From assembly GCF_002019635.1 (NCBI RefSeq), contig NZ_KV917371.1:2090001-2154000 (forward strand): a stretch of 64,000 nucleotides of DNA, given 5' to 3'. The DNA comes from Metabacillus halosaccharovorans (lineage in GTDB: Bacteria > Bacillota > Bacilli > Bacillales > Bacillaceae). The first letter of the stretch is position 1, and each line of letters opens with the position of its first letter. A model generated the notes under the pieces. It was given only the letters and a program-made list of their open reading frames with translations, had not been told where the DNA came from and ran no database searches. Below, in pieces: positions 12,407 to 64,000 of the stretch. The translations under genes were made by a program, and so were the position numbers.

Positions 12407-12435
12407 ATAATTTATAATTTCATATTTCGTATTAC

Positions 12436-12579
12436 ATTCTTCGGGGCAGGGTGAAATTCCCTACCGGCGGTGTTGAAGGGGATGACCCCTCTTAGTCCGT
12501 GACCCGTTAACTTAATTTGTTAACGGTGGATCTAGTGAGATTCTAGAGCCGACAGTGAAAGTCTGGATGGGAGAAGAAT
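12436..12579 (+). promoter_or_regulatory. FMN riboswitch (RFN element)
   Basis: Aptamer of about 144 nt closed by P1 attcttc (12436-12442) / gaagaat (12573-12579). The conserved RFN sequence blocks are present: GGGGCAGGGTGAAATTCCC, ACCGGCGGT, AGTCCGTGACCC, a variable hairpin (gttaac...gttaac), GGATCTAGTGAGATTCTAGAGCCGACAGT and the closing GTCTGGATGGGAGAAG. In B. subtilis FMN binding to this element causes premature termination of the rib transcript. A terminator lies at 12674-12708, consistent with that mechanism. Confidence 0.97.
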
Positions 12580-12673
12580 TGCGTGAATTTTTGCGGTGTA
12601 TTAAAGTCTGTGAAAAAATAGACATTTAATACTCTTATTTGACATACTCAAATATCAATTTCTGACATTTACC

Positions 12674-26143: not shown

Positions 26144-27945
26144 TTTTGTGGCGAAGTGTAGTTGGAAAGTTATGGGGAACGATTCTTTTGCTCGTTTCCT
26201 TTGTTTTATTTGTCTTAACGATTTTAATGCTTGAGTTTATCGAAAATTATCATGTAGATAAAGCTGAGGATGAGCTCACACAACTTGCTACTAAAGTGTC
26301 TCTGATTATTGAAAGTCATGAAGATCAGGAGCTTGCAAAGTCCATTTCATGGGAATTAGCTGATGAACTTACTCATATTATTATTGTAGAAAACGAAAAT
26401 AACGTTTCGAACTCACCTATTAAAGATGAAGAATTACCTCATTTAACAATGAAAGACATTGAAGAAGATGATGAGCTTTCACTACCATTAACAAAGCAGC
26501 AAAAAATCAGTAAACGAACAAATCTTGAGCAGCCAAATGATGTTTTTGCTAATGGGGAAGATGAAGTTCTTATTGTAGGAGTACCTTATGAGGTGTCAGA
26601 AACCAAGACAGGTGCTGTGTTTATTTCTCAATCTCTTAAGGCCGTACATGAAACAACAAAAGAAACGACAAAATACATTATTCTTGCGGCTGGAATTGCC
26701 ATTATTTTAACAACGATTTTTGCATTTTTCTTATCAACAAGGATTACTTATCCATTAAGAAAGATGAGAGAGGTAGCTCAAGAGTTAGCAAGAGGGAAAT
26801 TTGAATCAAAAGTTCCGATCATGTCGAATGATGAAATTGGGGAATTGGGTGTTGCTTTTAATCAAATGGGGAAGCAGCTCAAGTTTCATATTAATGCTCT
26901 TAGCCAGGAAAAAGAACATTTAACAAACATTTTAAGCAGTATGGCTGATGGTGTTATTACATTAAATATTGACGGAACTATATTAGTAACGAATCCACCT
27001 GCAGAAAGATTCCTTACATCTTGGTATTATGAACAAGGCATAAACGTAGAATCTGGTGGGGAGCTTCCCTCTGATATGAAAGCGTTGTTCCAAAGAGTAG
27101 TGAGTACTGAAAAAGAACAAATGCTTGAAATCATCATTCAAGGAAGAAGCTGGGTTATCTTAATGACTCCTTTATATAATCAATCACATGTTCGTGGGGC
27201 TGTTGCTGTGCTTCGCGATATGACGGAAGAGCGGCGACTGGATAAACTTCGTAAAGATTTTATTGCAAATGTGAGTCATGAACTAAGAACACCAATCTCG
27301 ATGCTGCAGGGGTATAGTGAAGCAATTGTCGATGATATTGCCAGCACAGAAGAAGAGAAAAAGGATATTGCAAAAGTAATTCATGATGAATCTTTGCGAA
27401 TGGGAAGATTGGTAAACGACCTGCTTGATTTAGCAAGAATGGAAGCAGGCCATATTACGTTAAATTTAGAAGAAATATCATTGAATGATTTTGTTGAAAA
27501 GGTTGGTCGAAAGTTTCAAGGGCTTGCAAAAGAAAAAGACATTTCACTTTTAACAGAAGTTCACATTAAAGAACCTATAAAAGTAATTGATCCGGATCGA
27601 ATTGAGCAAGTTTTAACAAATTTGATAGATAATGCAATACGCCATACAGGAGAAAATGGTTCAGTTGTCATTGAGGTTAAAGATCATACAGACGGTGTGA
27701 TAATAGATGTTAGAGATTCCGGCTCTGGAATTCCTGAGGAAGATCTTCCATTTGTTTTTGAAAGGTTCTATAAAGCAGATAAAGCAAGAACAAGAGGAAG
27801 AGCCGGAACAGGTCTGGGCTTAGCGATTGTAAAAAATATTATTGAAGCACATAAAGGTAAAATAAGTGTTCATAGTAAAATAGACGAGGGAACGACATTT
27901 AGCTTCTTTTTACCTCGAAAAAAGCTGGAATCTGAATATAATTGA
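26140..27945 (+). CDS. resE: Sensor histidine kinase ResE
   Basis: Membrane kinase partner of ResD, 601 residues. It has a first helix (about 12-32), an extracytoplasmic loop, a second helix (about 178-200), HAMP (201-255), PAS (about 260-365), a DHp domain with the phospho-acceptor His380 ([16 protein letters not shown]), and a catalytic domain with the N box [35 protein letters not shown] and [16 protein letters not shown] 26140 overlaps the resD TGA. A terminator follows. Confidence 0.97.
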
Positions 27946-36959: not shown

Positions 36960-37754
36960 ATGTTGGAAATTATGCTGGTCATGTTAGTTATCGTAATGAG
37001 CTTTGCTATTCTGATGATAATCGTCATGTATTTGAAAGCAAAAGAAAATCGTGTAACGATTCATCATATTAAATTTGATACATTCCCGGCACATTTGGAT
37101 TCTTTGAAAATTTTCTTTATATCTGATATACATAGGAGAACGGTTTCAGATGAATTATTGAAAAAAATTCCAAGTCAAGTTGATGTTGTAATGATCGGTG
37201 GAGATTTAACTGAATCAGGTGTTCCGTTTTCCAGGGTGGAACAAAATATACGAGAACTAAAAAAGTTGGCTCCTGTTTATTTTGTGTACGGAAACAATGA
37301 TTATGAAGTAAACCAAAAAAAACTAGAAACGCTCTTAGAAAACAATAATGTATGTATTTTAAAAAATACATACAAAGAGCTTTCATCGTCATCAAACGGG
37401 AGAATAGTAGTATTAGGTGTAGAAGATATGAGCGGTGAGAGAGATCGATTAGATTTAGCATTGAATGATCCTAAGAAGACAGAAACGGACTTTCGAATAT
37501 TATTAAGTCATAATCCTGATATTTATCACAAAATTAGTCAAATCGATCGTATTTCCTTAGTGCTAAGTGGGCATACTCATGGTGGACAAATCCGCTTTCT
37601 TGGTTTTGGTTTATATAAAAAAGGAAGATTACATAAATTAAGGAATACAACCCTTTTAGTTAGTAATGGATATGGAACAACAGCATTACCACTAAGATTA
37701 GGAGCTCCAGCAGAGGCTCATTATTTGTATTTGACGAGAAAAGATCATAAATAG
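36960..37754 (+). CDS. ypbG: Calcineurin-like metallophosphoesterase YpbG
   Basis: Membrane-anchored metallophosphoesterase of 264 residues; substrate unknown. An N-terminal helix (MLVMLVIVMSFAILMIIVMYL) is followed by the catalytic domain with ISDIH (D-x-H), IGGDLTE (GD), YGNNDYE (GN[H/N]D) and the distal SGHTHGGQ. ATG 36960 has AAGAAGGAGAG at 36945-36955; the frame is open slightly upstream but without a ribosome site. Confidence 0.92.
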   Translation: MLEIMLVMLVIVMSFAILMIIVMYLKAKENRVTIHHIKFDTFPAHLDSLKIFFISDIHRRTVSDELLKKIPSQVDVVMIGGDLTESGVPFSRVEQNIRELKKLAPVYFVYGNNDYEVNQKKLETLLENNNVCILKNTYKELSSSSNGRIVVLGVEDMSGERDRLDLALNDPKKTETDFRILLSHNPDIYHKISQIDRISLVLSGHTHGGQIRFLGFGLYKKGRLHKLRNTTLLVSNGYGTTALPLRLGAPAEAHYLYLTRKDHK

Positions 37755-61457: not shown

Positions 61458-61682
61458 ATGAATCAAAAAAATGATTTTGTAGTAATTAAGGCAATTGAAG
61501 ACGGAGTTCATGTTATTGGCTTAACAAGAGGCTCTGATACAAGATTCCACCATTCTGAGAAACTTGACAAAGGTGAAGTGATGATAGCTCAATTCACAGA
61601 GCATACTTCTGCCATTAAAATAAGAGGTAAAGCTCAAATTCAAACGGCTATTGGAGAATTGGAAAGTGATTCTCGCAAATAA
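61458..61682 (+). CDS. mtrB: Trp RNA-binding attenuation protein TRAP
   Basis: Tryptophan-activated RNA-binding protein that forms an 11-subunit ring and binds (G/U)AG repeats. It has 74 residues. The core [51 protein letters not shown] is intact, with the tryptophan-pocket loop [12 protein letters not shown] and the RNA-contact Lys and Arg residues (KIRGKA). ATG 61458 lies 109 nt after folE. A candidate target lies 365 nt downstream, ahead of hepS. Confidence 0.97.
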
Positions 61683-61993
61683 ATATTCCTTGTATTATGG
61701 ACGTGATGACTGTTGGATACGCTTGTATTCTGATTGTTCTAATTCTAGTTTATACAAATGTAAAGAGTGTCATAGGATTTGTATCAGGGAGAGAGCAGGC
61801 GTTCTGTACAGTCTGAAATGTTTTTAAGCATTAGGAATAAACTATATTTAAAATAAAAATCCATTTTTGGTTATGATATAATAAAATATGTTTATTTTTA
61901 TTATTATATAAATAGTACATATAGATCTAATTTATATTTGTTCTAAAACCTAATAATTAAGTGGAGTAGAGGCCATTAAAATATAATTTAAAT

Positions 61994-62101
61994 TTGTCCC
62001 CTTTTCCACATATGGCAGGTTCTTACTAGTAGAGTAAACACATTTTAGCAGAGATCAGGCTAGTAAGTGATAGGATAGAGATAATGTTAATTCGGGGACA
62101 A
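61994..62101 (+). promoter_or_regulatory. Putative TRAP-binding array and SD-pairing segment before hepS
   Basis: At 62046-62078 triplets recur every 5 nt: TAG (62046), GAG (62051), CAG (62056), TAG (62061), then a gap filled by AAG at 62065, TAG (62071), TAG (62076). TRAP targets are NAG repeats with 2-3 nt spacers. The 8-mer ttgtcccc (61994-62001) is complementary to ggggacaa (62094-62101), just ahead of and partly within the hepS ribosome site. This resembles the trpE-type arrangement of TRAP-linked ribosome-site masking. Inference from pattern only. The rest of the 430-nt mtrB-hepS gap is A+T rich with no clear gene or terminator. Confidence 0.5.
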
Positions 62102-62112
62102 GGGTGATATAT

Positions 62113-62880
62113 TTGCAGGACTTAGTAGTACATTTAGCTAAATTAAAGAAAGATTTAGAGGAGAAGCTCGAACATCCTTTTTTAGTCAAGCATTTACCTT
62201 CACCCAAGATTGATGAAGATAAATTGCTACTGTTATGTGCGATTTTTGATGAGATGGATCTTTCTGATGAAGTAAAGAGAAGCTATATTATGACGGCTAT
62301 GTTTGTTCAAATTGCCCTTGATACACATGATGATGTTACAACGAATCTTCATAGTAATTCCGAAGAATTTGTACAGAGACAACTAACAGTCTTAGCTGGA
62401 GATTACTTTAGCGGGTTGTATTATTTGTTGCTTTCTGAAATTGAGGATATCAAGATGGTTCGAACGTTAGCAATGGCAATTAAAGAGATTAACGAACATA
62501 AAATTAGATTATATCATGAACATAATCTGAATTTACCCTCAATGATGAATAGTCTTCAAATTGTTGAAACCAGCCTGTTTCAACACGTAGCCAATCATTT
62601 TAAGCTTAATTCTCATAAGGCATTTAGTATAGACTTCCTAACTTATAAAAGACTATCTCATGAAAAATTTCAACATGCAAATGGAATAGTACGTAGTCCA
62701 TTTACGATTAATTATTTGACAGAAACGTGTAATGTGTATTTTGAAAAGTCTGTTTCTCTTCTTAATTCAGGATTTTTAAGAAGATCTGCCTTTAGGGAAC
62801 TGTTATCGGATCGACTTCATTCAATCCGTTTTCACGATGCATTACTACATGAGAAAAAGACAGTGGAAGAAGGTTTATAA
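62113..62880 (+). CDS. hepS: Heptaprenyl diphosphate synthase component I
   Basis: Small subunit of the enzyme that makes the C35 side chain of menaquinone-7, acting with HepT. It has 255 residues. Family features are [46 protein letters not shown] and [15 protein letters not shown] 62113 ([11 protein letters not shown]) is chosen for its AAGGGTG spacing and match to the family start; GTG 62104 overlaps that site. It is followed 2 nt later by menG. Confidence 0.93.
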
Positions 62881-62882
62881 GT

Positions 62883-63590
62883 ATGGGTCAGTCGAAAGAA
62901 GAAAGAGTCCATGGTGTATTTGAGAAGATTTATGAAAATTATGATCAGATGAATTCTGTCATTAGTTTCCAACGACACAAAGCATGGCGTAAGGAAACAA
63001 TGAAACGAATGAATGTTAAAAAGGGACAATCTGCTTTAGATGTTTGTTGTGGTACCGCAGACTGGAGCATTGCCTTAGCAAATGCAGTAGGACCCGAGGG
63101 TAGTGTAACAGGACTTGATTTTAGTCAAAATATGCTAAAGGTAGGTCAGCAAAAGGTACAACAGCTGGGGTTACAAAATGTAAATTTGATCCATGGAAAT
63201 GCAATGCAGCTTCCTTTTAAAGATCATAGTTTTGATTTTGTTACAATTGGATTTGGTCTCCGAAATGTTCCTGATTATATGCAAGTATTAAAGGAAATGA
63301 ATCGTGTATTAAAACCTGGTGGAAAGGCGGTATGTTTAGAAACCTCCAAACCAACTTTACCAGTATTTAAGCAATTCTTCTTTATTTACTTCCGCTATGT
63401 AATGCCGCTATTTGGGAAAGTTTTCGCAAAAAGCTATAATGAATATTCATGGCTCCAGGAATCCGCACGTGACTTCCCAGGAATGTCTGAACTAGCTACA
63501 ATGTTTAAGGAAGCGGGCTTCATTGACATACAAGTAAAAGCCTTTACAGGTGGTGTAGCAGCGATGCACCTTGGTAGTAAGCCAAAATAA
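62883..63590 (+). CDS. menG: Demethylmenaquinone methyltransferase
   Basis: SAM-dependent C-methyltransferase of the last menaquinone step, 235 residues. MenG/UbiE motifs are [25 protein letters not shown], the SAM site [37 protein letters not shown] and the tail [11 protein letters not shown]-like ([15 protein letters not shown]). It lies between hepS and hepT, as in the B. subtilis gerC locus. Confidence 0.97.
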
Positions 63591-63824: not shown

Positions 63825-64000
63825 ATGAAATTAAAAGCAATGTACTCTTTTTTAAATAATGACCTTAATATAATCGAACAAGAACTGGAAATAACAGCTG
63901 TTTCAGAATACCCTTTACTGCGGGAAGCAAATGTAGAATTACTAAAAGCAGGTGGGAAACGAATTCGCCCAGTATTTGTATTGCTGTCTTCTATGTTCGG
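63825..64000 (+). CDS. hepT: Heptaprenyl diphosphate synthase component II, 5' end (truncated by window edge)
   Basis: Catalytic prenyltransferase subunit. Only the first 58 codons are in the window: MKLKAMYSFLNNDLNIIEQEL, then YPLLREANVELLKAGGKRIRPVFVLLSSMFG. The GGKRIRP block is the first conserved region of trans-prenyltransferases; the DDxxD motifs would lie beyond the edge. ATG 63825 follows AAGGTGA (63812-63818). The hepS-menG-hepT order matches the B. subtilis gerC operon. Confidence 0.95.
   Translation, partial: MKLKAMYSFLNNDLNIIEQELEITAVSEYPLLREANVELLKAGGKRIRPVFVLLSSMF

Follow-up and report, generated by a model that had tools for sequence, protein, structure and literature searches.

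A clade-specific leader with two mutually exclusive predicted folds precedes hepS in Metabacillus

The stretch of Metabacillus halosaccharovorans DNA analysed here (the window, 64,000 nt) carries the genes spoIVA, an HU-type gene, folE, mtrB, hepS and menG in that order (Table 1). The mtrB gene, encoding TRAP, is intact and occurs as a single copy in this genome (G000), and among the named loci the MtrB proteins of M. niabensis (L002) and Bacillus sp. J37 (L003) are identical to that of the window; trpE lies ~8 kb downstream of mtrB. For hepS the most probable start codon is TTG 62113, which shares its reading frame with the listed GTG 62104. The name hepT for the ORF that begins at 63825 rests on position alone, its 58 residues being without a Pfam match. 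A GCAGG..CCTGC-T terminator follows mtrB in most genus genomes and by eye is not evident in the window, L092, L094 and L093 (61683–61800), such that read-through from mtrB into hepS may be possible in these four. Our comparisons covered 21 genomes of the genus (Metabacillus), 59 other genomes of the family, and 101 hepS upstream gaps of which seven are duplicate loci and 94 are distinct.

Table 1. Features of the window discussed in the text, in window coordinates.
Feature	Position	Strand	Details
FMN riboswitch	12433–12582		113.2 bits
mtrB (TRAP)	61458–61682		NCBIfam NF009724, 140.8 bits
Extended -10 box of hepS (predicted), TATGATATAAT	61872–61882	+	Pattern T(A/G)TGNTATA(A/C)T
Element A, GTGGAGTAGAGG	61961–61972	+	Partner of B in the predicted A:B hairpin
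Element B, TTGTCCCCTTTTCCAC	61994–62009	+	Shared strand, can pair with A or box C
Hairpin P2	62023–62066	+	Arms TTACTAG 62023–62029 and CTAGTAA 62060–62066
NAG array	62046–62078	+	TAG 62046, GAG 62051, CAG 62056, TAG 62061, AAG 62065, TAG 62071, TAG 62076
Box C	62075–62108	+	ATAGAGA block through GGGGACAA and hepS ribosome site AAGGGTGAT
Small upstream ORF	62084–62107	+	Seven codons and stop; stop inside hepS ribosome site; open in 20/21 genus genomes
hepS, heptaprenyl diphosphate synthase subunit 1	62113–62880	+	PF07307, 218.3 bits; likely TTG start
menG	62883–63590		Downstream of hepS

The extended -10 pattern is found in 99 of the 101 hepS upstream gaps, the two without it being Kurthia loci, while a consensus promoter scan gave no excess over shuffles. 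From this box to hepS the median distance is 68 nt in L009–L081, as against 148–336 nt in 20 of the 21 genus genomes (88 nt in L090), suggesting that the leader was lengthened in the Metabacillus group. An earlier reading made from the letters of this DNA alone (the sequence-only reading) had named a hepS transcript start downstream of 62080 as an outcome that would speak against it; the predicted -10 box points instead to an mRNA that probably starts near 61890. We note that L009, L010, L063 and L090, which are Metabacillus-like loci with short hepS leaders, have by eye a different block in common after the promoter, roughly TTTTNTGTYTTTGCTAGCATTTCGAAT.

Four conserved blocks recur in the mtrB–hepS gaps: A (GTGGAGTARAGG), B (GTCCCCTTTT followed by a CAC-like flank), the hairpin P2, and box C, which extends from ATAGAGA to the start codon. 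The sequence-only reading had singled out two complementary 8-mers, TTGTCCCC at 61994–62001 and GGGGACAA at 62094–62101, the second overlapping the ribosome site at 62100–62108, together with a set of NAG triplets between them, and all of these letters lie where it placed them. The upstream strand of this pairing recurs in relatives: GTCCCCTTTT is exact in 13 of the 21 genus leaders, and GGGGAC faces GTCCCC downstream in all 13. A degenerate form occurs in three more (L083, L089, L095), and B is missing in L082, L084, L085, L088 and L090, among which L088 keeps an A-like stretch and the other four lack A too. The CTAG arms of P2 are found in eight genomes, with a variant in L083. In 100 shuffled leader sets the most-shared 8-mer reached at most 8 of 21 leaders, compared with 13 of 21 for GTCCCCTTTT, a contrast to be read with the caveat that shuffling ignores relatedness. 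The complementarity of two 8-mers is by itself weak evidence, but the conservation of the upstream half among relatives, as judged from these alignments, is not.

Box C is more widely distributed than B. Across the 94 distinct loci, CAAGGGTGAT precedes hepS in 65 and the fuller GGG(G/A)A..CAAGGGTGAT in 54, and the top 10-mer of this box is present before hepS at 65 of 94 loci versus 12 of 94 before mtrB (before menG, a control region that takes in the end of hepS, it is 57 of 93). A GGGGAnACAAGGGTGAT-like box (62094–62108 in the window) recurs before hepS across Bacillaceae genera. As box C is conserved in other genera that lack B, its conservation is not creditable to any switch involving B. 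On the sequence comparison, box C appears to be old in Bacillaceae, with A, B and the longer leader a Metabacillus addition, and B therefore looks like a later complement to a ribosome site that was already conserved. On the HepS tree the B-bearing genomes form one group of 12 and one of 4, which meet B-less lineages at an unsettled fork, so that one gain followed by losses is not separable from several gains.

In the predicted folds, B pairs either upstream with A (GTGGAGTARAGG) or downstream with box C (GGGGACAAGGGTGAT), and the two pairings are mutually exclusive, sharing GTCCCCTTTT. The B:C pairing has two possible registers, the first being that of the two 8-mers above and the second joining 61999–62007 to 62096–62104, directly on AAGGG. 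We folded the full leaders of all 16 genomes that carry B, exact or degenerate (HepS identity 59–100%): the predicted best fold was B:C in the first register in eight (L001, L092, L094, L093, L098, L097, L099, L100) and A:B in six (L086, L091, L087, L083, L089, L095). In L096 B covers the ribosome site in a different register, and in L101 the states are almost level; hardly any B:C is predicted in six of the 16. RNAalifold, given 17 leaders (these 16 and L088), returned a single helix, from B to C in the second register (61999–62003 and 62005–62007 with 62100–62104 and 62096–62098), which covers AAGGG. When the RNA ends just after B, the A:B fold is predicted in all ten genomes tested of the 16, and in L096, L097 and L099, where the flank of B differs, an upstream TTAGAAAAG can pair with that flank instead. 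When the P2 stretch is folded in isolation, the hairpin is the predicted best structure in L001, L093, L098, L087, L086, L091 and L083 and not in L092 or L094.

These energies are in silico and the preferred state varies between species. In the window the predicted probability of B:C is 0.95, with AAGGG on average 40% unpaired; in M. litoralis (L086) it is 0.00, B being paired upstream, and AAGGG is 4% unpaired, held by other sequence. Such an A:B fold without a free ribosome site counts, at the level of prediction, against a simple on/off reading. A temperature sensor was considered and rejected, as the B:C probability in the window goes from 1.0 to 0.91 over 20 to 45 °C and 12 genomes lack a common melting pattern.

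Pair counts favour A:B and P2, although they lean towards structure because the alignment was fitted to structure: 88.5% of cells are paired across the 16 leaders, versus 47–68% with slid partners, and ten cells are changed on both sides, a count matched in 0 of 500 shuffles, which average 3.7. Both-side changes fall at one A:B pair and three P2 pairs; neither further pair types (300 of 500 shuffles as high) nor pairs changed on both sides (108 of 500) stand out. The B:C pairing is without compensatory changes because box C is invariant. Its duplex energy, compared over stretches of 99 to 236 nt, is moderate relative to shuffled leaders, with counts out of 300 of 9 for the window, 5 for L092, 4 for L096, 0 for L097 and 1 for L099, 17–45 for L093, L087, L094, L101, L083 and L100, and 64, 86, 61, 93 and 167 for L098, L086, L091, L089 and L095, respectively.

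It is conceivable that A:B is simply a protective hairpin, a stability or spacing element in a long leader, and that B:C is an accidental complement of the old ribosome site. A:B is after all the predicted best state in six of the 16 genomes, box C is conserved elsewhere without B, and 19 of the 21 genus genomes also have a hairpin of -14 kcal/mol or lower immediately ahead of the pyk ribosome site (loci L154–L174, including L159; weak in L154 and L173). In that pyk hairpin, however, the pairing is kept while the letters change, whereas GTCCCC is letter-identical in 13 hepS leaders and opposite GGGGAC in every one. We consider a mere stability element somewhat unlikely.

The leader appears to be specific to hepS. 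In 20 of the 21 genus genomes a covariance model built from the 16 leaders (97–155 bits) had a single strong match, which lay at hepS, the B-less L082, L084, L085 and L088 scoring 69–75 bits; the match in G004 is weak (E 2e-4) and also at hepS, and the best match elsewhere in any genome has E 0.03. For each genome this search took 138 candidates, out of some thousands from the first look, through to full scoring, and degenerate copies could escape it. A search with the A..B pattern found 14 places in 12 of the 21 genomes, ten of them at hepS, versus two matches in one genome for the reversed control. Of the remaining four, two are antisense within a coding ORF (L139, L145) and two lie between a pfkA-like ORF and pyk (L146, L141), where the match looks coincidental since the letters of the pyk hairpin vary across the genus. 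We therefore reject a mobile or repeated element. Six of the 21 genus genomes carry the exact B..C pattern, and the 59 other family genomes gave no match to it; because the pattern required TTGGGGAC, the window itself is not picked up. A known RNA family, of the riboswitch or T-box class, was likewise rejected, as none of 4227 Rfam families matched the leader at its gathering score (best, DUF805 RNA at 17.7 bits versus 51.1) and the only match in the leader is weak (E 1.1). A transcription attenuator was rejected as well, there being no terminator-like site in 61660–62160.

The sequence-only reading had assigned the leader to tryptophan-dependent translational control by TRAP. One half of that proposal stands, namely that the leader contains an upstream strand able to base-pair with the hepS ribosome site, which makes translational control likely, but the other half, TRAP as the regulator, is not supported. 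TRAP prefers its triplets in the order GAG > UAG > AAG > CAG, and we used a TRAP score of our own whose weights follow these preferences. The hepS array consists of seven NAG, including CAG and AAG (the AAG one base off the array slot at 62066), and its longest strict GAG/UAG run with 2–3 nt spacers is two, compared with seven in the trp leader of the same genome. Its score of 4.9 is reached in 16 of 2000 dinucleotide shuffles of the leader (61891–62092) and, when the purine-rich stretch 62020–62083 is shuffled on its own, in 334 of 2000. Among 204-nt pieces, 2 of 604 elsewhere in the window (both strands) and 1 of 864 in the 21 pyk loci reach it; the array is thus uncommon for a single leader and ordinary at genome scale. 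Two other plus-strand stretches, 37400–37458 and 26757–26794, outscore it as TRAP-like (5.7 and 5.1). In PMC3913778 a TRAP site is defined as 11 GAG/UAG repeats with 2–3 nt spacers, and the hepS array falls outside this definition.

Conservation argues in the same direction. TRAP is encoded in all 21 genus genomes, yet the seven-triplet register across the mtrB–hepS gaps is kept in three only (G000, G010 and G014, HepS identity at least 96%) and is broken by 82% HepS identity (L093), and the array is absent from half (eight) of the 16 genomes that have the surrounding leader in common. In those same three genomes the trp leader holds an 11-triplet site scoring 9.6 (0 of 500 shuffles as high for G000), the 11 being counted by the looser score. 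Of 19 trpE leaders, five have 11 triplets (the window, G010, G014, G012, G017), three have 8–10, ten have a chain that reaches or possibly reaches the 330-nt analysis limit, and that of L107 (G020) has two triplets within this limit. Moreover, the 3′ arm of P2 contains or borders TAG 62061 and AAG 62065, and TAG 62076 belongs to the conserved ATAGAGA box, so the array is partly other conserved sequence. As A, B and C are also present in eight genomes with leader scores of 1.2–2.7, the putative switch is independent of the array.

We accordingly reject a TRAP target as the main reading on register conservation, although the statistics of the window's subclade stand contrary to this. All eight subclade genomes have hepS leader scores of 3.3–4.9, seven of them equalled by under 5% of shuffles (out of 500: L001 5, L092 11, L094 5, L093 74, L098 13, L096 21, L097 4, L099 4), versus 0.9–2.7 in the other 13 genus genomes; the ten top-scoring of the 101 hepS leaders (eight distinct genomes) are exactly this subclade, and element A itself carries AAG/GAG/GAG with 2-nt spacers (61959, 61964, 61969). 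The best arrays nevertheless differ in position, those of L098 and L096/97/99 lying elsewhere in the leader. Anti-TRAP searches gave no match in the window's genome and, among the 21 genomes, one over the cut-off and one weak, and in the literature titles and abstract openings searched we found none linking TRAP to hepS. A TRAP input in one subclade is unlikely, and it is very improbable that tryptophan-activated TRAP on 62046–62078 shifts the B:C balance and so ties menaquinone side-chain synthesis to tryptophan.

The small upstream ORF offers another route to control, in which it would be translated and coupled to hepS, with A, B and C tuning access. Its ATG, frame and stop are kept in 20 of the 21 genus genomes, as MLxWGQG, and the ATG block is also present in genomes without B. 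On the other hand, GGGGACAAGGGTGA-like boxes in other genera lack the ATG (by eye, e.g. L012 and L030), a strong ribosome site before the ATG is not seen, and changes at codons 3 and 4 alter the amino acid, the Trp codon being Arg in the window and L087, so that no coding constraint is seen. Control through this ORF seems to us quite improbable, and a leader peptide reading its Trp codon was rejected, as that codon is lost in the window and L087.

What is conserved, then, is a leader with two predicted states and not the NAG array, its function being deduced. Our best reading, which we hold at about even confidence, is that it is a clade-specific two-state leader RNA controlling hepS translation. 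As the RNA emerges, A (61961–61972) would pair with B (61996–62009), leaving box C and the ribosome site free of B; alternatively, B would pair with box C, with P2 looped out and ribosome entry hindered. Either a metabolite or a protein might be the signal that shifts this balance, as might ribosomes translating the small ORF (62084–62107). What the sequence shows is the set of elements, how far each is conserved, the incompatibility of the two pairings, and the folds predicted for them; beyond this we infer that the switch may work in cells, that B:C may lower translation and that some signal may shift the balance. A bolder version, which we regard as decidedly doubtful, would make this a new class of cis-regulatory RNA in Metabacillus in which the competition between A:B and B:C responds to an isoprenoid- or quinone-linked signal and so controls how far the menaquinone side-chain operon is translated, the window's subclade having acquired an additional NAG/TRAP input.

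In the literature listings and abstract openings searched we found no description of RNA-level control of the menaquinone heptaprenyl side chain. The leader is compact, and the balance between its two predicted folds differs from one sister species to the next, which makes it a handy system for studying how a switch of this kind can be built onto an old conserved ribosome site and whether translation sets the supply of respiratory quinone.

The nearest known system is perhaps the TRAP control of trpE translation in Bacillus subtilis, which like the hepS leader involves mutually exclusive pairings, one of which places an upstream strand on the ribosome site; hepS moreover lies in the same neighbourhood as mtrB and trpE. 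The hepS leader differs in being without an 11-triplet array and without a conserved NAG register. It also resembles orphan leader RNAs and the platforms of translation-type riboswitches, in which hairpins likewise compete to act at a ribosome site and each genome has a single strong copy ahead of a biosynthetic operon. It has, however, no sharply conserved ligand-binding core that we could see, and among the genomes compared it occurs in only part of one genus.
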